Source: Sphingobacterium sp. UBA7855
Lineage (GTDB): Bacteria; Bacteroidota; Bacteroidia; Sphingobacteriales; Sphingobacteriaceae
Assembly (NCBI GenBank): GCA_002500745.1
Contig: DLST01000007.1
Location: 127,786 to 191,785 of the forward strand
Direction: 5' to 3'
DNA: 64,000 nucleotides
The notes beneath the pieces were generated by a model. The model ran no database searches, was not told the DNA's origin, and saw only the letters and a program-made list of their open reading frames with translations. The position numbers and the translations under genes are program-made. Below are positions 10,701 through 27,381 of the stretch, one piece after another. Numbering within the stretch: the stretch's first letter is position 1; each line of letters opens with the position of its first letter.

Positions 10701-10834
10701 CATTGGAACTGTTCTGCCAGATTCAGAATCTATGGACCTACACGCGGTACAAAGGCGGCGATCCGGAGATACAGAATTACTTGACCACGCCACCCATGCG
10801 CATTATCATGTTTGGGCTAAAAATCAGTTTATAA
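7766..10834 (+). CDS. SusC/RagA-type TonB-dependent outer-membrane transporter
   Basis: 1022 residues. A signal peptide ends near residue 41 (FSLSAQ). A carboxypeptidase-D regulatory-like domain (about 53-128) follows, then the typical SusC TonB-box region (DETVVIGYGTT, about 133-143), the plug (about 145-275, with SLTQGSEPLVLLNG and the DATAIYGSRGANGVI signature) and a 22-strand barrel to the C-terminal aromatic end. There is no N-terminal STN domain, so it is not expected to signal to an anti-sigma factor, unlike the second SusC in this window. It imports a substrate captured by the SusD-like lipoprotein encoded 2 bases downstream. The substrate is unknown; the TlpA-type protein in the operon rather than glycosidases argues against a classical glycan locus. 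Confidence 0.95.
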   Translation: MTKRANLYAALLDKVVNIPVIQFTFLVIVFLLVSMFSLSAQTPREDSGANGLLTVSGTVVSASDRKPIAGVSVSMADEKGRASSKSDGSFTIEVKAKNGKILFSHLGYNAHSLNYTAGVSIDVELIPMDNRLDETVVIGYGTTTRRFATGSVTKVTSKDIQHQPISNPMLALQGLVPGLDVMPSSGISGAGVDLKVRGISSLTQGSEPLVLLNGNPIATNGQNIAELSNATKSGLSLFNAINPADIESIEVLKDADATAIYGSRGANGVILITTKKAFAEKAHLNFSSNIGVSSAGNVIPLLDTKGYLAMRREAFANSGLSLTEANAPDLLLADTTRYTDFSKYLVGSNNLTQDYNLGYVTGGDRTSFRLNGNLRREAFQFDRSKSSDRYNIGFNVNHRSADRRFTLDMAGNFTQNNSDLTVYDPAAYLYLMPHLQLRNDDGSLNWKIGPYSFSSLGFTNPLAQLENSFSGKFKNLFANIGLQYQLYTDLNLKVTGGYSFGNNSEKARYPSTGIDPSTSNLPFANFSNGSRYSWIVEPQLAYTKQLGLHNINFLLGSSIQQDGSENTLLAGTNYSDDNLLGTIAAAGKVVPSYTQSRYKYAALFARLGYRYNARYLLNIAARRDGSSRFGPGKQFANFYSIGAGWIFSEEKWMKQHSPWLSYGKLRGSYGITGNDQIGNYKFLDTWSSNALLYNGVVGMDPSMLYNPDYAWEANRKLELAMDMGFWKDRILLSFSYYRNRSDNQLIAYSLPFQAGFSSVNQNLDAEIENKGLEITLDANLIQGSHFSWSTKFNIARSRNKLLSFPGLGNSSYANKYVIGQSIRTQKFYRYTGINAQTGLYEIEDSNGDGKYTIQDRTVLVDYSPDFFGGWSNTFSYKRWRMGFLVDFKKQRGNGAQAANPNAPGLGLVNHATQVMDRWQQEGDGSDYQRFIASRTDKGYSAFQNFLNSDGKITDASFVKLRNVYLSYSPDVTVLKSITALELFCQIQNLWTYTRYKGGDPEIQNYLTTPPMRIIMFGLKISL

Positions 10835-10835
10835 A

Positions 10836-12233
10836 ATGGATCAAAATTTTAAAGCTATGAAAATTAACATACTACATATCTGTATCTCTAGCTGTATTGC
10901 ATTTAATCTCCTGCTGCTGTCGGCCTGCAACAAGCTGGTGCAGGTAGATACACCGGATCATCTGGTCGACTCAGAAGTACTTTTCCAGTCGAAAAAGGGA
11001 TATGAATCGGCGATGGCCGGCATCTTTATTCAGATGCGGGCACTCAACCTCTCCATGACCAATGGGGGTATGGAAGTGTACATGGGTGTAGCAGCCGATG
11101 AGATATATCCTACCTTAGTGGGTGGTGTTGAGGAGGAGTTTTTTAAGAATCAATTACAGAGTTCCAACGCAGTGGTAAGCAATTTTTGGATATATGCCTA
11201 TCGGGGTATATATCGCGCCAATCTAGTGATCGAAAATGCAGAGCGCGATCAGATGCTTTCTCTTACCGACCGACAGAATTTTTTGGGTCAGGCACTTTTT
11301 GTCCGTGCATTCTTACATTTCCATCTATGTCAATTGTTTGGTGATGTACCCTATATTTCTTCGTCAGATTATAGGGCGAATGCTGTCAAAGCAAGAGATA
11401 GCAAATCAATAGTCATGGAATCACTGTCAAAAGATCTGGAACGAGCTGCAGAACTCCTCCCCAAAGAAATCAAGGGCGAGCGTGTTATGCCATCTTATTA
11501 TGCCGCAATCGCATTATTGGCAAAAGTTAAATTATATCAGGGGCAATTTGAACAAGTACTTGATCTCACAGATGAGATATTGAGCAATAAAAATTTCACG
11601 TTAGAAATGGACCTCAACGATGTCTTTAAAATCAAATCGGCAGAAGTTATTTTCCAGATTGAAAGTACAGTAGCAAATACTGCTGTAGCGATGAATTTCC
11701 TTCCTTTTAGTCCCACGAGCAAGCCCATGTATGTCTTACAGCATGATCTGTTGCAAAGCTTTGAAGTTGAAGACCTCCGAAAGAAGGCTTGGACGGAATC
11801 AAATATACTGGATGGAACTGCTTATTACTACCCTACAAAATACAAGAACAAACTAATGACTCCGATTGAAGAATACAACGTGGTATTTCGACTGGCTGAG
11901 GTTTACCTGATGCGTGCCGAAGCGCTGTTTGGAGTTAAAGACTACGATCAAGTGCTATCGACATTGAACAGCTTGAGAAAAAGGGCAGGGCTAAAGGATA
12001 AAAAATACGCGGATGCAGTACAGTTATGGGAAGCTATCGTAACTGAAAGACGCCATGAGCTCTTTGTTGAAGGGGGCAACCGCTGGCTCGATCTCATCCG
12101 GTGGAATACCATTGATGACGTGCTTGGAGCATCAAAACCCTCTTGGCAATCCTTTGCAAAATATCTTCCTATTCCATCAAACGAAATTCTATTGAATACG
12201 CATTTAATTCAAAATCCTGGATATGATAATTAA
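10836..12233 (+). CDS. SusD/RagB-type substrate-binding lipoprotein
   Basis: 465 residues from the ATG at 10836. A second ATG at 10857 (MKINILHI) gives a more classical signal peptide and may be the real start. The lipobox LLLLSACN places the acylated Cys just after the hydrophobic segment. The body has SusD features: YRGIYRANLVIE, GQALFVRAFLHFHLCQLFGDVPY, the TPR-like middle, and a C-terminal part with EVYLMRAEALF, RRHELFVEGGNRWLDLIRW and PIPSNEILLNTHLIQNPGY. It forms the lid of the SusC transporter on the cell surface. The next gene overlaps its end by 11 bases, indicating coupled translation. Confidence 0.95.
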   Translation: MDQNFKAMKINILHICISSCIAFNLLLLSACNKLVQVDTPDHLVDSEVLFQSKKGYESAMAGIFIQMRALNLSMTNGGMEVYMGVAADEIYPTLVGGVEEEFFKNQLQSSNAVVSNFWIYAYRGIYRANLVIENAERDQMLSLTDRQNFLGQALFVRAFLHFHLCQLFGDVPYISSSDYRANAVKARDSKSIVMESLSKDLERAAELLPKEIKGERVMPSYYAAIALLAKVKLYQGQFEQVLDLTDEILSNKNFTLEMDLNDVFKIKSAEVIFQIESTVANTAVAMNFLPFSPTSKPMYVLQHDLLQSFEVEDLRKKAWTESNILDGTAYYYPTKYKNKLMTPIEEYNVVFRLAEVYLMRAEALFGVKDYDQVLSTLNSLRKRAGLKDKKYADAVQLWEAIVTERRHELFVEGGNRWLDLIRWNTIDDVLGASKPSWQSFAKYLPIPSNEILLNTHLIQNPGYDN

Positions 12234-13518
12234 ACAATTTCTCTTTGTTGTTTTGGTGTTTTTTCTTTTTAAGGAAACTACGGCGCAACAGGTAAAGGTC
12301 GGCGATAAGCTGCCCGCAATGAATTTTAAACAGGTACTGGGTCCGGACAAGGAAATTGATCTAAAACCGAATAAGTACAAACTCACCATCCTGGATTTTT
12401 GGGCACACGGCTGTGGATCGTGTATCGCTTCCTTTCCTAAGGTCGAAAAATTACAAGCTATGTTTGGTGATTCTATTCAGATTATTCTGGTAAATTATGA
12501 ATCGAAAGATTCTACTGAAAGCTTATTCGAAAAGCGTGACTGGATTAAAAAGCCCAATGTGAAAATGATCGTTGGCGATACCTTGCTTCACAAAAGATTT
12601 GCTGTGGTAGGCGTGCCGCATATCATTTGGCTAGATGAACAGCTTCAGATAAAATATATAGCTCGAGGTACCTCGCTCAATGCAGGGAATATCCGAAAGT
12701 TTCTAAAAGGCGAAAAACTAAACTCTAAGGAAGCCAAGCAAATGGTTGTCAAGACTTCTTTATTTGAGCGTGAATATGAATCGGATATGCAATCATTTAG
12801 TTACCTCGCACGGTATAATAGTGATTTTAGGTTTCGTGGAGGCGAATGGGGAAGTGCGCGAAGCTTTACCGCAAAAGGTATGACAGCAATAGATCTGATC
12901 AGATCTGCATATGCTGCAGACGGAACAGTGGATTGGCGAAGACCCTGGAAAACGGTCTTGAAAATTAAAAACCTCGATTTATGCCTGAAGCCAGACAATC
13001 TCGAAAATCCAGAAGATTGGCTTTACAATCATTCTTACGTCTATCAGCTTGTTATTCCGAGTGGAAGAGAGTCAGAAAAATATGAGATTATGAAAAGAGA
13101 TCTCGCTAATCATTTTCCGCTTAAGTTTTATATCGATACCATAGCAATGGAAACATTGGTCTTGCGTAAAGTCGGAAAAGAGGACAAGTTGAAATCTAAA
13201 GGTGGAAAACCGGTAAACACTTTTCGGAAAAGAAATGAATCTGCCAAAGGTAGCATATTTGAAGATAAACGCAGGATTCTGAAAAATCAACCCTTCCACT
13301 ATTTGCTGAATGGGATAAGGCCGCTAATAGAATATGATTTGGAAAAGCCTTTTGTAAATGATGTAGCTTATACAGCTAACGTGGACGTGGATTTTGATGG
13401 CTTAACTTTTGATTTCTTTACATTAGAGGCGCTGAATGAAGAGTTAATGCGCTATGGACTTCAACTCATTAATGAGATAAGACCTGTAGAAGTTTTAGTT
13501 ATTAAGGATGTAGATTAG
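12223..13518 (+). CDS. TlpA-type thioredoxin-fold protein with C-terminal extension
   Basis: 431 residues. A signal peptide (about 1-21) is followed by a TlpA/ResA-like thioredoxin domain with the redox motif CGSC at 64-67 (DFWAHGCGSC), a cis-Pro region (VVGVPHIIWLD) and an end near residue 165. The remaining 260 or so residues have no recognised motif; one section (GMTAIDLIRSAY and later TIAMETLVLRKV) resembles the long C-terminal parts found on many Bacteroidota TlpA proteins. It acts in the periplasm, probably keeping thiols reduced or in heme or metal handling linked to the SusC/SusD import. It overlaps the susD-like gene by 11 bases and closes the operon before a strong terminator. Confidence 0.85.
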   Translation: MIIKQFLFVVLVFFLFKETTAQQVKVGDKLPAMNFKQVLGPDKEIDLKPNKYKLTILDFWAHGCGSCIASFPKVEKLQAMFGDSIQIILVNYESKDSTESLFEKRDWIKKPNVKMIVGDTLLHKRFAVVGVPHIIWLDEQLQIKYIARGTSLNAGNIRKFLKGEKLNSKEAKQMVVKTSLFEREYESDMQSFSYLARYNSDFRFRGGEWGSARSFTAKGMTAIDLIRSAYAADGTVDWRRPWKTVLKIKNLDLCLKPDNLENPEDWLYNHSYVYQLVIPSGRESEKYEIMKRDLANHFPLKFYIDTIAMETLVLRKVGKEDKLKSKGGKPVNTFRKRNESAKGSIFEDKRRILKNQPFHYLLNGIRPLIEYDLEKPFVNDVAYTANVDVDFDGLTFDFFTLEALNEELMRYGLQLINEIRPVEVLVIKDVD

Positions 13519-13544
13519 CTGGTAACGCCAAGCTTAGCTATAGA

Positions 13545-13578
13545 AAAGCCCGGATGAATTGATTTCATACCGGGCTTT
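13545..13578. terminator. Bidirectional intrinsic terminator
   Basis: AAAGCCCGG at 13545-13553 pairs with CCGGGCTTT at 13570-13578 around a 16-base loop. It lies between the end of the TlpA gene and the convergent end of the small exported protein gene, and can serve both strands. Confidence 0.8.
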
Positions 13579-13617
13579 CTACTGACCATATACAAACATT
13601 CGCTTACTTCAATACTA

Positions 13618-13986
13618 TTAATTGTTGGATTGATTTATACGATGGTCTTCAGCTGGATTGGAGGGGGCAGGTGACCCGGGCGCTTGCGGTGTGGCAAAAC
13701 CTACAATACAGCTTGCTTCCAGTTCATCCTGACAATTCGTAATCTGCTTGCTTCCACCGGGCATTGATTCTGACTTGGTTTGTGGTGTACTGTTGAGCTG
13801 TGCCCCTAATGTATTACTACTTGAAACGGAGTACCAATACAATGCAGGTTCTGCTTTTTCAACTGGTGTTACAGCTTTGCTGTTTTCGGTACCTTCGGAT
13901 GTGAGCGACCAAGCTGATAATCCGATCATCATCGCCATACCTAGTACAGCTACGATATTTTTTTTGATGTTGTGAATGAGGTTCAT
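13618..13986 (-). CDS. Small exported protein, DUF6520-like
   Basis: 122 residues. The N terminus (about 1-32) is a basic start followed by a hydrophobic stretch (NIVAVLGMAMMIGLSAWSLTS), as in a signal peptide. The rest is polar, with the aromatic motif YWYSVSS near residue 50, two Cys residues (in ITNCQDELEASCIVG) and a Pro/Ser-rich tail. Short exported proteins with this layout, an aromatic motif followed by a Cys pair, occur in many copies in Bacteroidota under names such as DUF6520; membership is judged by eye. It converges on the Sus operon and is preceded by 370 bases without a gene. The function is unknown. Confidence 0.55.
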   Translation of the reverse strand: MNLIHNIKKNIVAVLGMAMMIGLSAWSLTSEGTENSKAVTPVEKAEPALYWYSVSSSNTLGAQLNSTPQTKSESMPGGSKQITNCQDELEASCIVGFATPQAPGSPAPSNPAEDHRINQSNN

Positions 13987-14360
13987 GACCTTAATTTTTA
14001 AAATTGATTTAATCTTTCTTTTTTACTACCCGTTCCGACCGATTTTTCTGTGCGTTGCCATCGGCAGCCGAACTAGCTTCATAAATGTCTTTTGGCAGAC
14101 TCGCCCTTTCTGCTGACAACCTAGCATCAGCATTCCGATGTCGCTTCACTGTCTTAGTTTTATTTAATTCATTCAGTTATGCCCTCCGCTTACAAATCTT
14201 TCCCCAATGACTGCTTTCAATCGAATAAACCGTCGACCATCTTATACCAAAGTTCGCCAGTAAATAGCAAGTGGGATATACAGAATCTGGACTCTCGTAT
14301 ATACAGAATCTGGATAATGGATGCCAATAGCTATAAAATGTATAATAGGGGCGTGTCAAA
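13987..14360. other. Intergenic region with a 16-base direct repeat
   Basis: Lies between the small exported protein and an AraC gene. The 16-base sequence ATATACAGAATCTGGA occurs at 14276-14291 and again at 14299-14314. A minus-strand open frame near 14015-14170 has no ATG and is not called. The promoter of the small exported protein should lie close to 14000-14100. Confidence 0.5.
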
Positions 14361-16690: not shown

Positions 16691-16993
16691 TGCATCCCGA
16701 AATTGTAAAACGCGATAGAGCGGGCGCGGCAGCCAGCCAACCTGTTCCCTATAGCACCCATTCTACAGGTGGACTTTGGCCTCTCCAAGTAGGATAAGAT
16801 GACGTCCAACAATGTGGCACTGCAGCTGAATATTGCCCAGGCGGTAGGCGGTGCGTATCCAAACTTTAGCTCATATTACAGCAAGATACGCATTACTTTT
16901 TTCGGGCGTCTCTCTGATAGATAGACGTTTTATTTAGCTGTTTTTTTGCATTACGTAATTTATCAGTTCCACGCCCTTTCGGCTGACTTGTTG
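16691..16993. other. Intergenic region with a possible coding remnant
   Basis: Between the LytTR-like gene and the convergent GNAT gene. A 41-codon plus-strand frame at 16799-16924 reads as MTSNNVALQLNIAQA then GGAYPNFSSYYSKIR and ends RLSDR. It could be the tail of a lost outer-membrane protein gene or chance. No terminator was found. Confidence 0.3.
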
Positions 16994-17386
16994 CTATTGG
17001 ATAACCCGATATCCGCGGCGCTCAAAAAAGGGCTTTGCCGTAATCGAAGCATGGGTTGTAAATAGATCGCATCCGGCAGCATTTTCTAATTTATTGCACA
17101 GTGCAGTGGCAATACCCTGTCCCTGATAGTCTTTGTGCACGTAAAGTCGGTCGAGGTAGCCCGCTGTAGTGATATCACCAAATCCTACAAGCTGATTATT
17201 AACCACTGCAACGAAGGTATGGTGCGCCAAAAAGGATTCGTTCCAGGCCTCTAGGTCAAGCTGGCCCGTCGCCCACACATCCAATTGCTCCTGGCTGTAA
17301 TCCGCTGCGTTGACCTTATGCACTGTATCATAAAATAACTGACTGATCTGTGCCAGATCGGAGGGCTGATAGTGTCGTATTTCCAT
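16994..17386 (-). CDS. GNAT-family N-acetyltransferase
   Basis: 130 residues, a single GNAT domain. It starts MEIRHYQPSDLAQISQLFYDTV, typical of the family, and has the acetyl-CoA loop in YVHKDYQGQGIATALCNKLE (about 79-98), with the Q-G-x-G-x-A pattern, and the late strand FFERRGYRVIQ. This form, with DRLYVHKDYQGQGIA, is close to small PhnO/YafP-like acetyltransferases that act on amines. The substrate cannot be read from sequence. It stands alone, converging on the LytTR-like gene. Confidence 0.88.
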   Translation of the reverse strand: MEIRHYQPSDLAQISQLFYDTVHKVNAADYSQEQLDVWATGQLDLEAWNESFLAHHTFVAVVNNQLVGFGDITTAGYLDRLYVHKDYQGQGIATALCNKLENAAGCDLFTTHASITAKPFFERRGYRVIQ

Positions 17387-17792
17387 TGTTTATTTTTAAG
17401 GGCTTCAAATTTAAGATTATTTGCACCATTGCCCAACTTTCTTGGCACTTTCTCCCAACCAAATCCTGCCTTTACAATAATCTTGCTCGTATTGGGCTCA
17501 GCTTTTCCTCGTAATAAATTCGAGCAGCGCCCGATGCCGTCCCGATGAAATCCCGATGAAAGCTGGGAGTTGATAGGGAATTGATTGCGTGTTGGCTTTG
17601 CAATGCTATCAATTTTTTTGTGCTAGAAAACTCAACGTTGAGATAAATTCGGTCTGTAATCGGTTAGGTTTCTGATGCTTTTCGGTCAGCTGTAAGTCTT
17701 TAATTGATTTGCTTTTTGTTGTTGATTTAAAGTTTTTTATGTTTGTTATATTAATTAAATGTGCCGGTATAAAACGGGGTTGGTATAAACTA
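17387..17792. other. Intergenic region upstream of a DUF6266 remnant
   Basis: No supported gene. A short tandem repeat of CCCGATGAAA/T occurs near 17540-17562. Open frames on both strands here are low-complexity or antisense to the remnant below. Confidence 0.4.
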
Positions 17793-17909
17793 ATGGGAAC
17801 TATTGTGCATGGAGCAAATGGGGGCTTTAAGGGTAAATCTGGCTCGGTAATCGGAAGTACGTGTATCTCCAAACGATACGCTCGACTATGCCAAGATCAG
17901 CATTGCTGA
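17793..17909 (+). pseudogene. N-terminal remnant of a DUF6266-family protein
   Basis: The frame MGTIVHGANGGFKGKSGSVI followed by GS is the characteristic start of DUF6266 proteins, which usually read as M-G-x-x-x-x-G-x-x-G-G-F-S-G-K-x-G-x-V-x-G and run to about 200 residues. Here the match stops after about 23 residues and the frame ends at residue 38. The rest of the gene is gone, and a perfect inverted repeat begins inside the last codons. The remnant is therefore a truncated copy, marking a past deletion or insertion at the left edge of the protease island. Confidence 0.6.
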
Positions 17910-17919
17910 TCTTGGCATA
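17887..17919. repeat. Perfect 16-base inverted repeat
   Basis: TATGCCAAGATCAGCA (17887-17902) and its exact reverse complement (17904-17919) are separated by one base. No T run follows. It overlaps the end of the DUF6266 remnant and may be a terminator of the lost gene or a recombination scar. Confidence 0.6.
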
Positions 17920-18250
17920 TATGGGGCCGGGAGCGTAACGGTTTCTTTGGGGGATTGGTCACTTTATTACTTGTTAGAGAAGATATGTAATTCCACAGAA
18001 TACGATTACCATTCAACACGCTAACTAAAAACAAAATCTCCTGAATGATTAATTTAAAAACATAGCAGTATCAGACATAGAATATAAAAAAATTGTTATC
18101 ATACTTTTTGGTTTCAATTTGGTAAATTTGGATATCTGCGTTTGCTTAGATGTAAGCTACACAAACATTTTATTGAAAAACAGATAGAACCTTATTGGTT
18201 CACCTTTTGTAAAATCTATTTGTATAATCATTAAAAAAATAATATTTACT
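17920..18250. promoter_or_regulatory. Upstream region of the first TetR gene, with an operator-like site
   Basis: A+T-rich. At 18112-18126 the sequence TTTCAATTTGGTAAA keeps the spacer ATTT and the right arm GGTAAA of the palindromes found further into the island. It lies about 125 bases ahead of the TetR start. It fits autoregulation, but only one half-site is good. Confidence 0.4.
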
Positions 18251-18907
18251 TTGAATGCGAATAAAAAGAGACGCTCTGTCGCCTCCACTTATAATAAAGA
18301 GAGAACCAAATCTAAGCTTATAAAAGCGGTAGGTAAAATACTCATAAAGGAAGGACACCAAAACATCCGGATCAATAAAATCGAAGAAGTTTCAGGGGTA
18401 GCTAAAAAAAGTATATATGATTATTTTGGAGGACTTAATGGGTTAATAAAGGCTTATCTTGATCAAGTTGATTTCTGGAAAGTTGTAGAGCATAAATTAG
18501 GGACTAAAGAAAATACTGAACTTCCAGATATAAGTGTCGATTTTTTGTTCAATCTTCTAAAAAGCGATTTTCAGTATTTTTTTAAGTCAACAGAAATGCA
18601 GAAAATTGTCTTATGGGGAATAAGTGAAAAGAATAAGATCATTCGGATGATGAATGAAGATAGCGAGAAACTTGGCGAACTGATATTTGAGAAAGCTGAT
18701 GATAAATTCAAGGGGACTGAAGTCGATTTTCGTGCGACTACAGCTATATTTGTTGCTTCAATTTATTATATGGTTTTACATTCTAAAAACAACGGCAGTA
18801 CTATGTGTGGAATAGATATCTCTACCGAAGCTGGAAAAAACCGCATTTTCAATGCTTTGTACCGTCTGATAAATTTAACATATAAGGATGCTGACGAAAA
18901 GTTCTAA
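18251..18907 (+). CDS. TetR-family regulator (first of two paralogs)
   Basis: 218 residues from a TTG start; no in-frame ATG precedes the DNA-binding domain. The TetR helix-turn-helix spans about residues 20-68 (SKLIKAVGKILIKEGHQNIR, then GVAKKSIYDYFGGLNGLIKAYLDQ in two parts). The ligand-binding half contains EMQKIVLWGISEKN and FKGTEVDFRAT, which are almost repeated in the TetR protein at the other end of the island. The two are clear paralogs. Related palindromes upstream of this gene, around the next gene and in the promoter of the lipoprotein operon make it the likely local regulator. The ligand is unknown; a product of the adjacent oxoamine synthase is a tempting guess. Confidence 0.9.
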   Translation: MNANKKRRSVASTYNKERTKSKLIKAVGKILIKEGHQNIRINKIEEVSGVAKKSIYDYFGGLNGLIKAYLDQVDFWKVVEHKLGTKENTELPDISVDFLFNLLKSDFQYFFKSTEMQKIVLWGISEKNKIIRMMNEDSEKLGELIFEKADDKFKGTEVDFRATTAIFVASIYYMVLHSKNNGSTMCGIDISTEAGKNRIFNALYRLINLTYKDADEKF

Positions 18908-19000
18908 ATTTCTATTCATTCATTTATTTAAAATATTTTATCTTTTAATCTAAACAACCGATTAGACTACCGCGATAAAGGTTAAGAATAACGTCCAAAT

Positions 19001-19023
19001 TTTGCCCACCATTTAGTGGTAAA
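19001..19023 (+). promoter_or_regulatory. Operator-like palindrome upstream of the oxoamine synthase
   Basis: The sequence reads TTTGCCCACC-ATTT-AGTGGTAAA, the same plan as the perfect site at 20370-20391 (arms ending ACC and GGT around ATTT). A TTTG at 19001-19004 could be the -33 element and TATATTTA at 19028-19035 a poor -7, placing the palindrome between them. It starts 74 bases before the ATG. Confidence 0.55.
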
Positions 19024-19074
19024 ATTATATATTTAAGGAATATATTAATTTTCACGAAAATATAACCTTAAATT

Positions 19075-20367
19075 ATGAACCATCAAAATCTTATGGACGC
19101 AATTGACCTGAGTATCTCAGAAGGCGTTAAGAGAGGAATACTCCATTTAAACCAAGAAGGCATTCTTACAACGGACAACCAAATCAGAATAAACGGTTCC
19201 AACTTAGTAAATTTCACTTCTTGTAGCTATTTAGGCCTTGAGCATGATGTCCGGTTAAAAAATGCGGCAATAGCTGCTGTAGAAAAATATGGAGTACAAT
19301 TTTCTGAATCTAGGGCATATGTATCTATTGGCCTTTACAGTGAATTGGAAGAACTGATGAGCAAGATTTTTGGATCCCCGACCATTATTGCCCCAACCAC
19401 GACATTGGCTCACCTATCGGCTATACCAGTGATCTTAGACTCCCGAGATGCAGTAATAGCTGACCAACAACTTCATAACTCCGTACTGAGTGGGATAAAT
19501 GTTTTTCGTGCCAATTGGCCTATTCATTTCGAAGTTCTTCGGCACAATAGGATAGATTTGTTGTTCGAGAGGATTGAAGTCCTCCAGAAAACCCATGATC
19601 GAGTGTGGTATTTTGCGGACGGAGTATATTCCATGTTCGGCGATCGATGTCCTTCAGATGAAATCTTCAATCTATTGAATGCATACCCTTCGTTCCATAC
19701 CTACATTGATGATGCACACAGTATGAGCATAATGGGTAAACATGGAAAAGGATTTATACTTGGTGAACGTGACATTCATGACAGAATGATTGTAGCATCA
19801 TCTATGGCCAAAGCATTTGCCACCGGTGGGGGAATCCTGGTACTCCCGAATAAAGAAATCGCAAGGAAAATAAGGGCATGTGGAGCGCCCTTTAATTCTT
19901 CAGGACCATTGCAGCCAGCCACTCTTGGAGCCGCTGTAGCCTCAGCTAAAATTCATCTATCGGAGGAGATTTATGCGCTTCAAGCTGAATTAGTAAGTAG
20001 AATAAAATATGCTAATTCTCTTTTTAAGGAAACATCATTACCGGTGATTTCGAATTTTGATTCGGGAATATTTTTTATTGGTACATCGAGATCGGAACTC
20101 GCTTACATCATTATGGAAAAAATGATGAAGAGGGGATTTTTTTTGAACATCGGTGTATTTCCAGCTGTTTCTAAGAATCATTCCGGTATAAGATTTACAA
20201 TAACTGTGTTACAGTCTTATGAGCAAATAGAGATGATGATTATGATCCTAAATGAAGTGTTTTTAGAAACATTAAAAGAGCACCAGTACACAATCAACCA
20301 GATCTATAGTGCATTTAAGGTCGTAGCCCGATTGGACGATCGGCCAAATGGTGAATTCCTGAGTTAA
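19075..20367 (+). CDS. Alpha-oxoamine synthase family PLP enzyme (KBL/BioF/SPT/CqsA-like)
   Basis: 430 residues of fold-type I PLP enzyme. Family residues are present: His134 (ADQQLHNS, stacks on PLP), Asp212 and His215 (YIDDAHSMS) and the Schiff-base Lys246 (ASSMAKAFATGGG). The start FTSCSYLGLEHDVRLKNAA matches the N-YLGL motif of the group. These enzymes join an amino acid to an acyl-CoA with loss of CO2, giving for example KAPA, 3-ketosphinganine or the CqsA autoinducer precursor. The acyl acceptor cannot be named; a housekeeping serine palmitoyltransferase would not normally be linked to TetR genes and proteases. The extended C terminus (about 395-430) is unusual. It lies between operator-like palindromes and upstream of the lipoprotein operon, so it may make a signal or lipid linked to that operon. 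Confidence 0.85.
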   Translation: MNHQNLMDAIDLSISEGVKRGILHLNQEGILTTDNQIRINGSNLVNFTSCSYLGLEHDVRLKNAAIAAVEKYGVQFSESRAYVSIGLYSELEELMSKIFGSPTIIAPTTTLAHLSAIPVILDSRDAVIADQQLHNSVLSGINVFRANWPIHFEVLRHNRIDLLFERIEVLQKTHDRVWYFADGVYSMFGDRCPSDEIFNLLNAYPSFHTYIDDAHSMSIMGKHGKGFILGERDIHDRMIVASSMAKAFATGGGILVLPNKEIARKIRACGAPFNSSGPLQPATLGAAVASAKIHLSEEIYALQAELVSRIKYANSLFKETSLPVISNFDSGIFFIGTSRSELAYIIMEKMMKRGFFLNIGVFPAVSKNHSGIRFTITVLQSYEQIEMMIMILNEVFLETLKEHQYTINQIYSAFKVVARLDDRPNGEFLS

Positions 20368-20369
20368 CA

Positions 20370-20391
20370 TTTACCACCATTTGGTGGTAAA
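20370..20391. promoter_or_regulatory. Perfect 22-bp palindromic operator candidate
   Basis: TTTACCACC-ATTT-GGTGGTAAA has perfect 9-base arms. It begins 2 bases after the stop codon of the oxoamine synthase gene. It is the best copy of a motif seen five times in 2.4 kb, so regulator binding (probably by TetR) is more likely than a terminator; no T run follows. Confidence 0.65.
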
Positions 20392-20396
20392 TTACA

Positions 20397-20408
20397 CACT
20401 ATTTAGTG
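20397..20408. promoter_or_regulatory. Second, shorter palindrome of the same type
   Basis: CACT-ATTT-AGTG repeats the ATTT-centred plan with 4-base arms. Its centre is 22 bases from the centre of the perfect site, about two helix turns, so two regulator dimers could bind the same face of the DNA. Confidence 0.4.
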
Positions 20409-20523
20409 ATATTGATACATGAAAAAAAATAGATTTTTATGTTTTTTTATAATTTTAAAAATCTTTAAATCAAGTGTTTATGTGTGAATTTCAAAATAGA
20501 AAAAAATAAAAAAAATTTCTTTA

Positions 20524-20554
20524 TTGACCATTTGGTAAAATATATGTATAATTG
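20524..20554 (+). promoter_or_regulatory. Bacteroidota-type promoter with overlapping operator
   Basis: TTG at 20524-20526 and TATAATTG at 20547-20554 match the -33 TTG and -7 TAnnTTTG elements (one mismatch) with a 20-base spacer. The spacer starts with ACC-ATTT-GGTAAA (20527-20539), the core of the island palindrome. A bound repressor would block the polymerase directly. The C10 protease gene starts at 20575. Confidence 0.55.
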
Positions 20555-20574
20555 TTTATTATACTCCTAAATAT

Positions 20575-22083
20575 ATGGAAAGAACCAAATCCAAACCGAC
20601 CAAAAGAGTTAGAATAGTCTATATGCAGTTTATTCTACTTCTGACAATTGCTGCGATCTCATGCTCAAGAGACCATGACGTCATTGACGAAACGGAATCA
20701 CAAAACCAATTTGTTGGCGAAATATCTCTTTCAGACGACGAAATTACTGGTCTCAAATATGCGGAACCTAAAGAAATTTCTGAGGGACAGGCCATACAAA
20801 TAGTTAACGATTTCCAATTGAAATTTCAAAAGGATCCGCTGACGAAATCATTTAACAATACCGCTTATTCAATAATAAAAAAGACCTTTATTGATAAGGA
20901 AGGTACACCTTTAAAGAATAAAACCTTGACGAAAGGTAATTTTGAGGATCAAATGCCCGTATATGAAATATTAATAAGCACGAATGGAACAAAGTCTATC
21001 GCCTACGTTGCCGCAGATGAGAGAATTTCAGATATCATCGCAATTGTACCTACAAAAAATGGTATTTCTCTTAATGATGTATCAATCGACCCAATGTTGC
21101 AACTTTCCCAACAGACTCATGCTAAAAATGTTTCAAAACTGAACAATACCGTTGATTCTATCAATGCTATAACCTTAAAAAAGTTAAAAGACAAGTTTGG
21201 TACATTGCCAAGGTCAAATGTTTATCAGTCTTTAAAAAGAAATATTAAAACTACATCGAATAAATCGGTGGAAACGAAGAGTATGGTGCAGGGTACTATA
21301 AATAATCTCCTTTCACAAGTAGGCCCTCTAATGTATACTTTTTGGCATCAAGATTATCCTTTTAACGACCAAATGGCACCAAGTACTGATTGCGGAAAAT
21401 ATTCCGCAGGATGTATGGTAGTTGCTATCAGTCAAGTTATGGCATATTATAGACCGAATTTTAGTATAAAAGTTAATAATGCAACAACGCCACTCAATTG
21501 GAGTTTAATAACCAACAATTATAATGGAACTGATGCGTATGGGGAAGACTACCAATTTTCTTTATCTGCCAAACCTCATGTAACAGGTTTAATTAAAGCG
21601 ATTTATGATCAAACTGGAACATCACCTTCTTGTTCCGGATCTTCAACTAATGCTTCAACTGGCATAAACTTCATGAAACAGTATTTCACTTTCAATAACT
21701 CTTCGAATCATACTCCTGGAATAAATATGAGCGATATAAAAAGCTCTTTGGATATGAATAGGTTGGTCTTTGCGACAGGGAAAAGAATACCTACTGGTGA
21801 AAGCCAAAAAGTAGGTCACGCATGGGTTGTGGATGGATATGCGGTAACAGAGTTAAATCCAGGGGAGTCAATTGTGGGTAACAATGTTTGGCAGCGTTAT
21901 AACATGTATTTGCATGCAAATTTAGGTTGGGGGAGACCAATTATTGGTTGGTTTACAAATTTACATGGCACAGGTTGGTATTTGGTCGGTAAAGACAACA
22001 ATGGATCACTGAGCTTTCAAGCGAATCAGGAGCAAGACTATAATATTGATCTAACATTTTACTCAAATATTGTTAAAAAATAA
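20575..22083 (+). CDS. C10 (streptopain-like) cysteine protease, lipoprotein
   Basis: 502 residues. The hydrophobic N terminus ends in a lipobox (TIAAISC, Cys30), so the protein is probably anchored to the outer membrane. Residues about 55-235 form a propeptide region of the SpeB type. The catalytic domain starts near 245 (GPLMYTFWHQDYPFN) and contains the nucleophile Cys280 in SAGCMVVAISQVMAYY, His415 in VGHAWVVDGY and Trp452 in NLGWG, all as in active streptopain. C10 enzymes cleave host or food proteins and are also found in the interpain and prtT families of Bacteroidota. It is the first gene of a five-gene operon and carries a likely repressor site in its promoter. Its closest relative in the operon is the catalytically dead copy at 25025. 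Confidence 0.92.
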   Translation: MERTKSKPTKRVRIVYMQFILLLTIAAISCSRDHDVIDETESQNQFVGEISLSDDEITGLKYAEPKEISEGQAIQIVNDFQLKFQKDPLTKSFNNTAYSIIKKTFIDKEGTPLKNKTLTKGNFEDQMPVYEILISTNGTKSIAYVAADERISDIIAIVPTKNGISLNDVSIDPMLQLSQQTHAKNVSKLNNTVDSINAITLKKLKDKFGTLPRSNVYQSLKRNIKTTSNKSVETKSMVQGTINNLLSQVGPLMYTFWHQDYPFNDQMAPSTDCGKYSAGCMVVAISQVMAYYRPNFSIKVNNATTPLNWSLITNNYNGTDAYGEDYQFSLSAKPHVTGLIKAIYDQTGTSPSCSGSSTNASTGINFMKQYFTFNNSSNHTPGINMSDIKSSLDMNRLVFATGKRIPTGESQKVGHAWVVDGYAVTELNPGESIVGNNVWQRYNMYLHANLGWGRPIIGWFTNLHGTGWYLVGKDNNGSLSFQANQEQDYNIDLTFYSNIVKK

Positions 22084-22106
22084 TTTATTAAACCAAATAT
22101 AATATT

Positions 22107-23063
22107 ATGAAAAAGCACATTAGAAAAATCTGTGTCGTCATTCTTGCAATTATGGTTGTTTTTGCGGCTTGTCAGAAATCGTCCGAGCCTAAGAATAACG
22201 AAACGATAGAACGCAAAGATCCCAAAAAAGAATTTGGAAATTTTACTCCTTATACAATAAAGTATTATGATGACAATAATAGGGTAGATATCCATTTTGT
22301 GGAGACTCCGATGGTCTTTACCCTCAATCTTAAGGAAAAAAATAGTCATTCTTATCTGGAAATAGTCAAGAGTTCCATTAAATCAGCAACTCCTGTCCTT
22401 GTAAGCACTTATGAGGGTGGTATGATCGGAAGTAAAATTGAGATTGCCACAGTTGAAAAATCAACAGATGCCGTAATTGAAAAATTTAAGAAAGAAACAT
22501 ATTCGCCCGATGCGACGCCTTTATCAAAGGAAAGTGACATTGTACCAATGCCGAGTGAAGCAGTTATGAATACCGTTTTTAATCAATGTAAAAATGACCC
22601 TGACCAATCTTTCGCCTTCAAACCTGACGGCTGTTATGCACGTGCACATAAGATGATGGCTGTAATCAGCCAGAATGGTTATATGAGTGGTAAACAATTT
22701 GTTTATGGAAATTTGGCCGTAAATATAGGCGGTGGTTGCTGCCAAACTTGGGGTTGGCATGTTGCTCCCCTAATAAGGTTCAGGAATGCTGCGAATCAAA
22801 TTGAAGTTAGAATCTTCGACCCTTCGGTTTCAAGCACACCACTGACAAAAGCTCAATGGGAGACATTAATCACAAGTTCCTGTACATCTGGATCAGGTAT
22901 CGCATTAAGATTTTTAGCTAGACCGGAGGTATATAACAGAAATCCGAATACTGGACAGACAACAACTGACAACAATCTTACAAAAACATTCTGCACATTG
23001 AATTTATATAAGCAATATTCAGGTGGATGTATGGGACTTCCTCCAGGGGCTTGTTCTTGGTAA
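22107..23063 (+). CDS. Protein-glutaminase-like deamidase, lipoprotein
   Basis: 318 residues with lipobox VVFAAC (Cys22). The C-terminal half closely follows the Chryseobacterium protein-glutaminase: DGCYARAHKM with the nucleophile Cys176, KQFVYGNL, WGWHVAP with His218 and FDPS with Asp238, so the Cys-His-Asp triad is complete. The tail carries the same Cys-rich pattern. Residues 30-150 correspond to the propeptide that inhibits the secreted enzyme. The known enzyme deamidates glutamine side chains in intact proteins, releasing ammonia. Here it is a lipoprotein instead of a free exoenzyme and lies 23 bases after the C10 protease, which could mature it by cutting off the propeptide. Confidence 0.88.
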   Translation: MKKHIRKICVVILAIMVVFAACQKSSEPKNNETIERKDPKKEFGNFTPYTIKYYDDNNRVDIHFVETPMVFTLNLKEKNSHSYLEIVKSSIKSATPVLVSTYEGGMIGSKIEIATVEKSTDAVIEKFKKETYSPDATPLSKESDIVPMPSEAVMNTVFNQCKNDPDQSFAFKPDGCYARAHKMMAVISQNGYMSGKQFVYGNLAVNIGGGCCQTWGWHVAPLIRFRNAANQIEVRIFDPSVSSTPLTKAQWETLITSSCTSGSGIALRFLARPEVYNRNPNTGQTTTDNNLTKTFCTLNLYKQYSGGCMGLPPGACSW

Positions 23064-23102
23064 GAAAATATGATCAAAATGTATATTAGCCTATAACAAG
23101 TT

Positions 23103-23903
23103 ATGAAATTTATTTTAATATTCACCCTACTTTTAGCGCTATTCTTTTCAACAGGCTGCTCAAAGGACAATGATAACCATATTCCTGAAGAAGTTCTTGT
23201 TGAGAAAATTTCTGGAACCATTCCCAAGACGATTGATCTGAATGGAAGGAAGATTGAAGATTGGTTAATTTCATATGGTAATTATAACTACAATACCCAA
23301 TTAATAGGTTCAGAAGTCATGGGAACAGCTATAGGAACAGGGTATAACAACCTTTATCGAGCCTCTATTTTATTCGCCCCAAAAGATTGGCGAAATGAAT
23401 TGGGTGAAATTCCATTGGTCAAATCATTGCCGCCTAGCAAGCCAAACTTTAAAAATCAGAATACATTGGATTCAATTTTATGGGCGGATATTCTTTACGC
23501 AAATTATGATGGCGAAAAAGTTTCTGAAATCAATGGGCTTGAATTTTCGCATGCTAATGCCCTGTGGGATTTCCACTTGGATGGGTTCCCAGAAGGAACA
23601 ACCATTAAATTAACTCAATTGGCAAAGGGTGAATTTCTACCCTATAAGAAAGGTGATGGAAAGTTTCAATATGTTATGATGGGAAACTGGTGGACACCCG
23701 ACCATTCAAAACAGTATATTTTAGCATATGTAGAAAATGAAATATACAAAATTGAACTGGATATGAACAAAAAGAACACGATCTATCGATTTGAACTCCA
23801 TTTCGATAAATTAACTAAAACTCTAGTCATCAAAGAATTGAAAGAAGCTGTATGGAGCGATGAGCCTTGGCCTGAAGATTCAGAAATTTCCAAAAACTTA
23901 TGA
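23103..23903 (+). CDS. Lipoprotein of unknown function in the protease operon
   Basis: 266 residues with lipobox FFSTGC (Cys19). After a short polar linker come beta-rich sections without a family signature that I can name. A middle block (HANALWDFHLDGFPEGTTI) has a flavour of fimbrillin-type lipoproteins, where a similar small-residue strand plus hydrophobic run is seen, but the match is weak. No catalytic residues stand out. Its stop overlaps the ATG of the C11 protease gene by 4 bases (ATGA), so the two are probably coupled. It could be a binding partner or scaffold of the proteases. Confidence 0.55.
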   Translation: MKFILIFTLLLALFFSTGCSKDNDNHIPEEVLVEKISGTIPKTIDLNGRKIEDWLISYGNYNYNTQLIGSEVMGTAIGTGYNNLYRASILFAPKDWRNELGEIPLVKSLPPSKPNFKNQNTLDSILWADILYANYDGEKVSEINGLEFSHANALWDFHLDGFPEGTTIKLTQLAKGEFLPYKKGDGKFQYVMMGNWWTPDHSKQYILAYVENEIYKIELDMNKKNTIYRFELHFDKLTKTLVIKELKEAVWSDEPWPEDSEISKNL

Positions 23904-25009
23904 CACAACTCAAGACATATATTTTCATCGTTCTATCTTTTATTATCATAAATGGTTGTGAGAAGTCCAATGATAAACCGCAAGAAGAGTTTGAGCATGG
24001 GATCCTTATATATATTGGGGCCAACAACAATCTTCATTATGATGCCATTAATACAATTGAGAAGATAAGGGAAGGTGCAAAATCACTGAAGAAGGATCAG
24101 GCCATTGTTGTTTATGCTAAAACTCAATCAATCTCTACACTACTAAAAATAACTAGGTCTGATAACGGGGTGAAGATCGATACCCTTAAGAACTTCAGTT
24201 CAGAAAATTCATCGAATCCAAATTTTTTGAAAGGAGTGGTCGAAATTACAAGAAACTCCGTTAGGGCAAAAAAATATGGATTAGTGCTATGGTCACATGC
24301 AACTTCTTGGATCCCCCCCACAAATTCGAAAACCAAATCTTTTGGATCTGACGACTTTCAGGAAATGGATATTAAAGACCTCAAATCAGCTTTGCCGGGG
24401 AAATGGGAGTACATTATGTTTGACGCCTGTTCCATGGCAAGTATTGAAGTATGTTATGAATTGAAGGATATAGCAAAGTTTATCCTTGGCTCTCCTGCGG
24501 AGGTTCTGAGCACGAGCTTTCCTTATGATGTTATTCTGATGGATCTGTTCAAAGGTGAGGAAGGGCTTGTAAGGGTCTGTTCTAAGTTTATGGAATATTA
24601 CCGGAAACAAACGGGCCTATATGCCTCTGCTACAGTATCTCTCATAGAAACATCGCAGCTATCAGATATAGCCTTACATACACAACGCCTATTGCAAATG
24701 AAAAAGCCAGTAGAAGACTTCAATAGAAGCAAAATTCAATCGCTGGATTTTGATAATATAGGCGATGTGCCGGCTTATGATTTTATAAGTTTTCTAAAAC
24801 AAAACTTTGAAGAAAGTGAATATGGCGAGTTAGCGCATTCGATCGAAAAATCGATCCTTTTTAAAGACCATACATCTGAATTCTTTAACTTTCCGATTAA
24901 GGAATATTGCGGACTCAGTATTTACCTGCCTGAAAAAAATGATCCATATCTAAATTATTATAAAACCCTACTTTGGTCAGGGGACAGTAAATGGCACCAA
25001 TTATTTTAA
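23900..25009 (+). CDS. C11 (clostripain-like) cysteine protease, lipoprotein
   Basis: 369 residues with lipobox IIINGC (Cys20). The caspase-like fold is clear: the strand FEHGILIYIGANNNL, the catalytic His133 in YGLVLWSHATSW and the nucleophile Cys177 in MFDACSMASIE, with the typical H...C order of clan CD. C11 enzymes cut after Arg or Lys and often self-process; here no obvious Arg/Lys-rich activation loop was seen. It overlaps the previous gene by 4 bases. Together with the C10 protease and the deamidase it forms a surface protein-processing set. Its specificity towards basic residues would complement the broader C10 enzyme. Confidence 0.88.
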   Translation: MTQLKTYIFIVLSFIIINGCEKSNDKPQEEFEHGILIYIGANNNLHYDAINTIEKIREGAKSLKKDQAIVVYAKTQSISTLLKITRSDNGVKIDTLKNFSSENSSNPNFLKGVVEITRNSVRAKKYGLVLWSHATSWIPPTNSKTKSFGSDDFQEMDIKDLKSALPGKWEYIMFDACSMASIEVCYELKDIAKFILGSPAEVLSTSFPYDVILMDLFKGEEGLVRVCSKFMEYYRKQTGLYASATVSLIETSQLSDIALHTQRLLQMKKPVEDFNRSKIQSLDFDNIGDVPAYDFISFLKQNFEESEYGELAHSIEKSILFKDHTSEFFNFPIKEYCGLSIYLPEKNDPYLNYYKTLLWSGDSKWHQLF

Positions 25010-25024
25010 ATTATAATTTATTTT

Positions 25025-26398
25025 ATGAAAAGAACCCTATCAGTATTACTTCTTATTTCGTTAATGGGATGTAATAAGACAAAACAAGAAATTCAAATAG
25101 AAGCACAGGATAAAGTAAATCTTACGCCAGTTGAATACAAGAGCATATTCATAAATGAGGGTGATGTAATCAACAATGAAAATATTGGTAAGTTACTTCA
25201 AGATTTTTCGGAACAAACCATAGACCCAAATTTGAAGACTAAGACCTCCAAATCAGTAAAAATTGTAAAGATGGAACCATTTAATGTAGGTACCAAATCA
25301 AGCTCTTCAATTAATACAAAATCTTTATTGAATGTTCTTTCTGTTTCTGAAAATGGGGATTCGACGTCTTCTTTGATTTCGGTAGATGCGAGATTACCTG
25401 CTGTATTAGCTTATATCAAAGGTAGTAGAGCCATAACCGAGAATAAAGCCCCCGAAGCTGTCTCCTTAATGTTAAATGCAGCATTGAAATCTTACGAGGA
25501 TAAATTAAATGTAGCAAATAATCAAAGGGATTCGATTAAACTAGCAACAATATCTAAAATTTCTCAGAAAACGTCAATACCTAAAGAAGATCTAAGCCCT
25601 GAAAAGATAAAGTCCCTCATTTCTGTCAAAACAGAGATTGGAACAAAGTCTCAAATGCTCAAAGACCCTAGAGATCTGTATACAAGTTGGGTTGTTATTA
25701 ATAATTATATCCCATTTTTGAGAACCTCTTGGGGGCATGCTATGCCATATAATCGATTAATGCCACAGACCTGTACAAATAATTGGCTTTGGGATTATAG
25801 ATTCCCAATACCTTCATCTGCTGTTGCAATTGCTCAGATTCTTGCATTTTATAAACCGGCTGTTACAATGAATGGTATGACAATGGACTGGACTTATTTG
25901 ACTGTAAATAAAGAGATCCATGAGGAAACCGATTATTTTGGAACCTATGTTCAAGATCCATTGTTACGTAGAAATATGGTAGCCGAACTCATGAAAGGAG
26001 TTATCGCTAATTGTAATATAAGTTATACTTGTACTGGAAGCTCAATGACAATTACTCCAGTAAAGAATTATCTCGCTACTTTTCAGATCACAACAGGAGC
26101 AGAAACTGGACTCACATGGCCACCTATTAGAAATTCAATAGCTGATTTTAAACCAGGCCTGCTTTATGGTCAGACTGACGCAGGTCAAGGCCATTTTATG
26201 GTCGTTGATGGGGGTATGCTGATGAGAACAACTCCAACAGACTATATTGATTTTCATTTCGTACATGTTAATATGGGGATGGGGGAAGCATATAATGGTT
26301 ATTATTTGCAAGGTGACCAAAAGTTAGAGCCAGGTTTTGCAACTTTTACCAAAAACTGGAAATTACTTCCTTCGATCACAAAGAATTATACAAATTAA
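25025..26398 (+). CDS. C10-type pseudoprotease, lipoprotein
   Basis: 457 residues with lipobox SLMGC (Cys16). It aligns with the active C10 protein of the same operon: TSWGHAMPYNRLMP matches TFWHQDYPFNDQM, and PIPSSAVAIAQILAFY matches SAGCMVVAISQVMAYY. In that alignment the nucleophile Cys is Ser264, and the conserved Trp of NLGWG is Met419 (NMGMG), while the His is kept (His390 in GQGHFMVVDGG). The protein therefore cannot use the usual thiol chemistry. An extended N-terminal region (about 20-215) is larger than needed for a signal and may be a kept propeptide. It may act as a binding protein, decoy or inhibitor of its active neighbour. It is the last gene of the operon. Confidence 0.85.
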   Translation: MKRTLSVLLLISLMGCNKTKQEIQIEAQDKVNLTPVEYKSIFINEGDVINNENIGKLLQDFSEQTIDPNLKTKTSKSVKIVKMEPFNVGTKSSSSINTKSLLNVLSVSENGDSTSSLISVDARLPAVLAYIKGSRAITENKAPEAVSLMLNAALKSYEDKLNVANNQRDSIKLATISKISQKTSIPKEDLSPEKIKSLISVKTEIGTKSQMLKDPRDLYTSWVVINNYIPFLRTSWGHAMPYNRLMPQTCTNNWLWDYRFPIPSSAVAIAQILAFYKPAVTMNGMTMDWTYLTVNKEIHEETDYFGTYVQDPLLRRNMVAELMKGVIANCNISYTCTGSSMTITPVKNYLATFQITTGAETGLTWPPIRNSIADFKPGLLYGQTDAGQGHFMVVDGGMLMRTTPTDYIDFHFVHVNMGMGEAYNGYYLQGDQKLEPGFATFTKNWKLLPSITKNYTN

Positions 26399-26528
26399 TC
26401 ACCAACTTCTGAACACCTAATTGATACGCTATAATATTTCAATTCTGGTCTTAAGATGTTAAGTCAGAACTTCATAAAAAGACAAGAAAGGATCAAATTT
26501 ACAATGAACTGCGGTACTTTCTTGTTTT

Positions 26529-27161
26529 TTATTTGTGTTTCTCTAGATAGCACCACTCCAAAATCTGATTAACTGCTTTGAATATCCTAGTTTTACCTTC
26601 TTCTGTTTTCAAATCGATCTCACACATTTTCACTCCCGAAGTTTTAGCATGTAGCACCATATAATATATGGCAGATACCAGAATGGTATTTATTGCCCTA
26701 AAATCTACATCGGTACCTTTAAAATCTTTATCTGTTAATTGAAAGATAACTTTTCCAAATTCTTCCCGCTCTTCGATCAACTTTTCCAATGATGTATTTT
26801 TTTCACTAATACCCCATAAAATTACCTTTTGCATCTCTACAGATTTTTCAAGATAGTGGAAATTGTCCTTTAGTAAGGAAAGCATACTTTCTTTTGATAT
26901 TGAAGATGTTAAATTATATGCATTTTCATTAAAATCTCTTTTTCGTTGATTCCAAAAATCAACTTGATCTAAATATGCTTTGGTAAGCCCATCAAGTCCA
27001 TTAAAATAATTATATATTAATTGTTTACCAACCCCTGCTGTTTCTGCAATTCTGTTAATTTTAATAGCATGAAATCCCTCTTTGCGTAATAATTTTCCAA
27101 CTGCATTAATCAATTTTTGCTTTGTTTTTTCTTTGTTTCTGATGATAATACCTTTTGCCAT
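26529..27161 (-). CDS. TetR-family regulator (second paralog)
   Basis: 210 residues, ATG start. The helix-turn-helix (QKLINAVGKLLRKEG, then GVGKQLIYNYFNGLDGLTKAYLDQ in two parts) and the ligand domain (EMQKVILWGISEKN, FKGTDVDFRAI, IYYMVLHAKTSG) are close copies of the TetR protein at 18251. The gene is convergent to the lipoprotein operon and has no copy of the island palindrome in front of it. It could compete for the same sites or act elsewhere; the paralogy suggests duplication at both borders of the island. No terminator between the two genes was recognised. Confidence 0.9.
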   Translation of the reverse strand: MAKGIIIRNKEKTKQKLINAVGKLLRKEGFHAIKINRIAETAGVGKQLIYNYFNGLDGLTKAYLDQVDFWNQRKRDFNENAYNLTSSISKESMLSLLKDNFHYLEKSVEMQKVILWGISEKNTSLEKLIEEREEFGKVIFQLTDKDFKGTDVDFRAINTILVSAIYYMVLHAKTSGVKMCEIDLKTEEGKTRIFKAVNQILEWCYLEKHK

Positions 27162-27381
27162 TTAATACTCTATATTTAATGTAGCTCGAAGAGCTTGTTT
27201 AACAAAGATAAGCTTTAGAATCATCATTAAGACTCACACTAAAATTGTTTAATAAAAACTGAACATATTCGATTTTTTAACATTCCCGTTTATGTAAGCC
27301 GGATCTTCATCAAGACACCTTCATCATCCGTCAAAGGAACCTGGCAGGTCGTTTAAAGCACAAGAAAGTGCCAACCGCCAT

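Follow-up and report, generated by a model that had tools for sequence, protein, structure and literature searches.

A candidate self-regulated TetR and alpha-oxoamine synthase unit in Sphingobacterium, with predicted surface hydrolases that differ in related loci

A low-GC island in the genome of Sphingobacterium sp. UBA7855 (contig DLST01000007.1), lying within the 64,000-nucleotide stretch analysed here and referred to as the window, carries a gene for a TetR-family protein (TetR1) beside one for an alpha-oxoamine synthase (AOS), five cargo genes for predicted lipoproteins and a second TetR gene (TetR2). The five-protein kit was seen only here, and the unit that recurs in relatives is TetR with AOS. 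Palindromes at the AOS and cargo promoters look, from the sequence, like a shared putative operator. Two relatives keep TetR and AOS but have other predicted surface enzymes, a difference suggestive of an exchangeable arsenal under a single chemical switch. The leading reading, to which we give an even chance, is that of an acquired, self-regulated island in which AOS and cargo are kept off by TetR and the AOS product relieves this repression.

All eight genes were found at the place and in the order given by the original prediction, which had proposed them as an undescribed surface protease and deamidase system. TetR1, AOS, a C10 protease (C10a), a protein-glutaminase (PG), an orphan, a C11 protease and a second C10 homologue (C10b) lie on the plus strand and are followed by TetR2 on the minus strand. 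TetR2 had been called a paralogue of TetR1, and the two are 49% identical. The gaps within the cargo are 23, 39, -4 and 15 bp, and those before AOS and C10a are 167 and 207 bp. The features, with the basis for each in brackets, are as follows.

17748..27342, no strand: low-GC island, right end 27294-27342 (flank alignments to the relatives G155 and G256, which have pfkB there; GC)
18251..18907, plus: TetR1, TTG start (open reading frame (ORF), Pfam, profile and fold comparison)
19002..19023, plus: operator-like palindrome before AOS (core ACCATTTAGT at 19008)
19075..20367, plus: AOS, candidate pyridoxal 5'-phosphate (PLP) lysine K246 (Pfam, NCBIfam, alignment)
20370..20411, plus: tandem operator-like sites before the cargo (cores at 20376 and 20398, 22 bp apart, the second degenerate)
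20527..20536, plus: third core site ACCATTTGGT (38 bp 5' of the C10a start codon)
20575..22083, plus: C10a protease lipoprotein, Cys280/His415 (Pfam, alignment)
22107..23063, plus: protein-glutaminase lipoprotein, Cys176 (Pfam, NCBIfam, structure-sequence alignment)
23103..23903, plus: orphan lipoprotein, 266 amino acids (ORF; database search)
23900..25009, plus: C11 (clostripain-family) protease lipoprotein, Cys177/His133 (Pfam, alignment)
25025..26398, plus: C10b, C10 homologue with Ser265 for Cys (Pfam, alignment)
26529..27161, minus: TetR2 (ORF, Pfam)

The TetR and AOS pair and its operator-like sites

A TetR-family gene adjoins the AOS gene at all 13 of the other close AOS loci (AOS 67-86% identical), which are the 11 closest of 32 from a scan of genome contigs together with two in G345 and G795. 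At the remaining 21 of the 32 loci (48-53% identical) no relative of TetR1 or TetR2 was found at E 1e-5 within the locus DNA covered. The TetR gene lies 3' of AOS on the opposite strand at the 10 Sphingobacterium loci and 5' of it, as in the window, at the three Niabella-group loci, whose TetR proteins cluster with TetR1 (tree support 95/92, with a warning of long branches from the tool). The pairing is also found in a second AOS subfamily (424 amino acids; L185-L214), which gave 35 matches in 34 of 93 genomes: a TetR of the same family lies just downstream at 25 of the 30 loci examined, and at 20 of the 20 that are at least 72% identical to the query. The close AOS itself is rare, occurring in 10 of 399 genomes of one family (an eleventh match being a 40% relative), in 2 of 394 of another family (E 1e-150), in 3 of 17 of the Niabella-group genus and, in a scan without a positive control, in 0 of 79 of a further genus. 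At one AOS locus, L010, the AOS reading frame is broken by stops, and a site four mismatches off the palindrome described below lies downstream of it.

The palindrome ACYATTTRGT is present upstream of AOS and upstream of the cargo, as TTTACCACCATTTGGTGGTAAA before the cargo and as a copy with three mismatches before AOS. A search for the palindrome allowing up to three mismatches gave two matches in 64 kb, with 0.00 expected, and these are the sites before AOS and the cargo. Six copies of the shorter core ACYANNTRGT are present in 64 kb. Four of them lie within the 374 bp of the two gaps and two of these are 22 bp apart, a count that is only descriptive because the motif was chosen after the sites had been seen. 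The cargo promoters of L029 and L077, which belong to two Niabella-group genomes, have two sites each at the same 22-bp spacing. A 37-bp consensus of these tandem sites matches four places in L029 and L077 only (13 genomes, approximately 81 Mb; none for a reversed-pattern control) and, since it was derived from those four places, only its absence elsewhere is informative. In three of these four cargo promoters one site is positioned between TTTTG and TAnnTTTG elements 19-20 bp apart, which we take to be the Bacteroidota promoter form. Operator-like palindromes before both AOS and cargo make control by a small molecule plausible and, with the pairing of TetR and AOS in two AOS subfamilies, they make a product-released repressor the leading reading.

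The AOS matches PF00155 (70.7 bits against a cut-off of 19.7, E 1.7e-19) and has H134, D212, H215, K246 and R373, which are invariant in 30 aligned relatives and which we take to be residues of the PLP site. On this basis it belongs to the alpha-oxoamine synthase superfamily. Its best NCBIfam subfamily is PRK07505 (244 bits versus a cut-off of 342). Assignment as a BioF, KBL or ALAS equivalog was rejected, all scores being below the NCBIfam cut-offs, as was assignment as serine palmitoyltransferase (139, 125 and 88 bits versus 640, 500 and 670) or as CqsA (PRK07179, 80 bits versus 428). The alignment to the solved cysteate acyltransferase scores 59 bits and that to the CAI-1 synthase 33 bits.

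TetR2 scores above the PF00440 cut-off (33.2 bits) and TetR1 below it (16.7 versus 24 bits). The predicted structure of TetR1 (mean pLDDT 72.7) resembles solved TetR-family proteins, and a profile search also matches TetR proteins. The nearest solved folds are TM1030, one entry of which contains octanol, FadR, the uracil-binding RutR and efflux regulators, so that the modelled fold fits a hydrophobic ligand but names none.

Two of these folds, FadR and octanol-bound TM1030, would also be in keeping with a rather doubtful alternative, in which the AOS reaction yields an end product, for instance a lipid base, and TetR responds to a compound from outside, for instance a fatty acid. AOS and the cargo would then be switched together to remodel the envelope, with no self-made signal. 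Serine palmitoyltransferase and cysteate acyltransferase are both AOS enzymes (excerpt of PMC9304779), and the Sphingobacterium relatives retain TetR and AOS in the absence of the window's cargo, both as this alternative would have it. The AOS here, however, falls under the serine palmitoyltransferase cut-offs and scores 59 bits with the solved cysteate acyltransferase, and no further lipid gene was seen among the island ORFs.

Predicted surface cargo of the window and of related loci

Four of the five cargo proteins fall into known families. C10a matches PF01640 (E 8.7e-20) with the catalytic Cys280 and His415 present, PG matches PF18626 (E 1.1e-20) but lies below the NF040782 equivalog cut-off (168.3 versus 250 bits), and C11 matches PF03415 (E 5.8e-42, 145 bits) with His133 and Cys177 kept. 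C10b also matches PF01640 (E 2.3e-15) and has Ser265 at the position of the nucleophile, in agreement with the earlier description of a C10 pseudoprotease; the cysteines that had been named for the other enzymes, Cys280 of C10a, Cys176 of PG and Cys177 of C11, were likewise correct. Among 24 other C10b relatives (P0126-P0149) the cysteine is replaced by serine in 23 and by alanine in one, and the histidine is kept in all 24. This pattern indicates a conserved variant rather than decay, and the sequences are consistent with either a conserved pseudoenzyme or a Ser-dependent variant. For the orphan, a database search gave four proteins, one of which was the window's own or nearly so, a profile search gave one implausible match, and the predicted structure (mean pLDDT 33.5) was of no use. 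One homologue of the orphan (P0122) and one of AOS (P0015) lie on contigs that share a length of 9422, a match of lengths that merely hints at another island of this kind. By its sequence the orphan brings type V pilin subunits to mind, an assignment that is presumptive.

Lipoboxes had been claimed for all five proteins. By a strict pattern this held for three of them, C11 (INGC) and C10b (LMGC) requiring Asn or Met to be allowed at position -2. Over the window, L029 and L077 together, 10 of 13 cargo proteins pass the strict pattern, the failures being the window's C11 and C10b and one L029 copy with a short N-terminus. As 8 of 36 other long ORFs of the window also pass, over a shorter stretch, the pattern alone is weak.

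The C10, C11, subtilase and glutaminase cargo of these loci all act on protein by family. It is therefore conceivable, if unlikely, that the surface proteases and deamidase digest outside protein as nutrient scavengers under nutrient-linked induction, with AOS as a bystander. Operator-like sites precede AOS as well as the cargo, however, TetR adjoins AOS even at loci without the window's cargo, and no transporter is found among the island ORFs, all of which argue against scavenging.

When the five cargo proteins of the window were compared by tblastn (E 1e-5) with the 13 other close AOS loci, the sole relative was a C10a homologue in the L029 array (24% identity, E 5e-7), which was absent from the output of a larger search and found in a smaller one. 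A five-protein machine conserved as a unit was rejected on this result. The original prediction, which had called for the same gene order to be sought in other Bacteroidota, thus stands in part: its own refuting condition, that relatives have the genes only apart from one another, largely applies to the kit but not to TetR and AOS, which are kept together. Of the proposed surface machine itself, a TetR-linked unit with AOS and predicted surface hydrolases is retained and one conserved five-protein machine is not.

TetR and AOS are found with operator-like sites and lipoprotein hydrolases at three loci, the window, L029 and L077. Besides a C10 protease that carries a Spi-type inhibitor domain, the L029 cargo includes one DUF7689 lipoprotein and three small lipoproteins. 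L077 has one small lipoprotein together with two subtilases. For the small lipoproteins Pfam gave no match at E 0.1, or weak ones only. In L029 the 3' end of AOS is repeated twice (94% and 90% identical), each copy being followed by convergent cargo, the promoter region and a small lipoprotein are also repeated, and the array adjoins a transposase gene. Such repeats are what cargo exchange by recombination at fixed ends would leave behind.

Cargo that differs by locus, AOS 3' ends repeated between cargo blocks, and small lipoproteins beside large ones in L029 and L077 might also be expected if the exchangeable cargo were weapons against other bacteria, with the small lipoproteins providing inhibition or immunity. 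In Bacteroidales, C11 proteases at the surface are activators of antibacterial toxins (excerpt of PMC11169675), and C10 genes of B. fragilis are co-transcribed with inhibitors (excerpt of PMC2873492). Antagonism nevertheless seems improbable, and the least probable of the alternatives, as no toxin family or known immunity family was found among the window cargo in scans with Pfam, NCBIfam and PADLOC, and the small lipoproteins give no Pfam support for such a role.

The proposed switch and the evidence weighing on it

In the leading reading, a product-released repressor, TetR1, perhaps with TetR2, would occupy the ACYATTTRGT palindromes at the AOS and cargo promoters and keep both off. AOS would condense an amino acid with an acyl thioester to give an alpha-aminoketone, and this compound or a derivative would free TetR from the DNA, so that a little product would lead to more AOS and cargo. 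The cargo would then be exported as surface lipoproteins, some as zymogens, with the C11 protease probably activating or releasing other cargo before the C10 protease and glutaminase cut and deamidate extracellular proteins. Between lineages the cargo block would be exchanged and TetR, AOS and operator retained. We infer TetR binding and repression, the AOS reaction, the product as ligand, surface display, the order of activation and the targets. An activation chain among the surface cargo is plausible by analogy: protein-glutaminase is synthesised with a pro-sequence (excerpt of PMC6132073), and surface proteases of the C11 family both activate toxins and free lipoproteins from the surface (excerpts of PMC11169675 and PMC12632263). 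A more specific form is put forward tentatively and is the less probable of the two. It is a Bacteroidota signalling system in which the aminoketone-type product of AOS would diffuse as a signal and be received by the neighbouring TetR, with a cassette of surface hydrolases as the output. Lineages would swap this cassette by recombination at conserved ends, namely the tandem-operator promoter and the 3' end of AOS.

Several observations weigh against a product-released repressor. The tandem site of the window differs from the Niabella-group consensus at eight positions. The TTTTG/TAnnTTTG pattern is absent from the fourth cargo promoter, from the C10a promoter of the window and from the AOS promoters of L029 and L077, and the AOS promoter of the window fits only a relaxed form of it, with a 23-bp spacer. 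The start of TetR2 has none of the window's six core motifs nearby. The Sphingobacterium AOS-promoter motif occurs once per genome in nine of 10, each time at AOS, with one hit for the reversed-pattern control. By tblastn none of the window's cargo is found at the 10 Sphingobacterium loci, which keep TetR beside AOS; full gene lists were inspected for L001 and L005, and other lipoproteins may be encoded at these loci. TetR-centred loci (60 examined of 66 places) have this AOS in two cases and the second-subfamily AOS in eight, within approximately 1.5 kb, and the loci of two TetR proteins, L170 (62% identical to TetR1) and L171 (51%), have neither AOS nor cargo nor tandem site. Finally, the nearest folds to TetR1 include a uracil sensor and efflux regulators besides the fatty-ligand ones and, being mixed, cannot name the ligand. 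In the second AOS subfamily the palindrome was not noticed by eye in seven aligned upstream regions, two of which were cut at the wrong base. The presence of TetR was rejected as a strict system marker, since lone TetR relatives occur. A third TetR of the same family is present in Sphingobacterium genomes (L035-L043), with no AOS at the four loci inspected; the gene beside it is presumably OmpH-like.

Origin of the island, known systems and implications

The island is 9.6 kb in size and has a GC content of 35.2%, compared with 44.5% and 43.9% in its flanks, bearing out the A+T-rich composition noted originally. Other 9.6-kb stretches of the window range from 34.3 to 47.8%, the low values coming from its A+T-rich left end. 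In G155, which is placed in the genus of G007, an S. detergens genome, the left flank aligns up to 17747, with 99.1% identity across 320 bp, the right flank aligns from 27343, with 98.6% identity across 6973 bp, and 1044 bp with a pfkB-family gene occupy the site of the island. G256 is 95-97% identical near the site and 97.8% identical over the same 1023 bp of the pfkB stretch, with the same left end as G155 and a right end closer to 27294. Neither genome has a close AOS (best matches 25-26%), so that the island is confined to the present strain or to its lineage, and gain by replacement of the pfkB state is the simpler reading because that state is common to the two relatives. The named AOS relatives at 83-86% identity are from Sphingobacterium, which, with the right flank's match to G155, places the host in that genus or near it.

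No mobile-element gene was recognised among island ORFs of at least 100 amino acids, no tRNA was found in the 64-kb window, and no direct repeat of at least 9 bp was found between 220-bp stretches at the island ends; a wider search gave one 11-bp direct repeat (17601 and 27407) with both copies outside the island. Carriage by viruses was rejected, as none of 17 stretches that fitted a pattern encodes a relative. Among plasmids, 612 records match AOS, every one below 60% identity. AOS relatives (30-31%) are present on enterobacterial plasmids (L108 2065-3162 and L109 5001-6092), one adjoining a major facilitator superfamily transporter gene and the other an asparagine synthase gene, and no TetR gene lies beside the AOS on either of these two plasmids.

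Elsewhere in the window, 7921-14232, with a TonB-dependent receptor (7766-10834) and downstream genes, gave no alignment to G155, so the neighbourhood is strain-variable at more than one place. G155 and G256 lack most of a small GNAT acetyltransferase gene (16994-17386; window 16740-17343). PADLOC gave no match at E 0.01 among the six locus proteins submitted (all but the orphan and TetR2), and a known anti-phage defence system was rejected for these six. At 476-3883, in a stretch of 28-30% GC, PADLOC does match a reverse transcriptase of the defence type that is joined to a nitrilase-like domain (RT_UG5-nitrilase, E 2.7e-218).

Gamma-butyrolactone-type autoregulators of Streptomyces combine a small-molecule synthase with a TetR-family receptor. 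The likeness to the present locus lies in a synthase gene that adjoins that of a TetR-family regulator, as at all 13 close relatives, where TetR is a putative receptor, and in operator-like sites before synthase and output genes; the TetR profile also weakly matches the receptor AvaR1 (E 9.5e-4). In contrast, the present locus has an AOS as its synthase and surface hydrolases, not antibiotic genes, as its output, it belongs to another phylum, and its ligand step is proposed. The synthases of CqsA/LqsA alpha-hydroxyketone signalling also belong to the AOS superfamily, but the AOS here is far under the CqsA cut-off and its neighbour is a TetR, whereas the known receptor of the CqsA/LqsA type is a sensor kinase.

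For the cargo, the C10 proteases of B. fragilis, which with staphostatin-like inhibitors are found on mobile elements, likewise lie on acquired Bacteroidota DNA; the excerpt of PMC2873492 mentions no AOS or TetR partner, and here C10 is one of several cargo types. PG aligns with the solved protein-glutaminase of Chryseobacterium proteolyticum over the pro-region and catalytic domain (128 bits, DGCYARAHKM kept), but differs in falling short of the equivalog cut-off and in having a lipobox. The C11 lipoprotein keeps the Cys and His of the Bacteroidales surface clostripains fragipain and DpnB, but is the fourth gene of a cargo operon linked to TetR and AOS, and its activity is predicted. Judged by titles and the starts of abstracts among the matches listed from the openly licensed literature, no TetR-AOS or TetR-signal-synthase pair is described, which is weak evidence, nor is this arrangement in C10 and C11 papers; no openly licensed paper on protein-glutaminase and Sphingobacterium was found.

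Every protein family involved is already known, and what seems new is their combination into a candidate switch of the autoregulator kind whose surface effectors can be exchanged. If TetR has the AOS product as its ligand, the locus would give Bacteroidota a synthase-receptor pair that is open to testing and linked to surface enzymes that modify whole proteins. It would also predict that, next to a TetR-AOS pair, any gene block with the tandem operator encodes surface effectors, a rule that gives a handle on proteins without a family, such as the orphan of the window.

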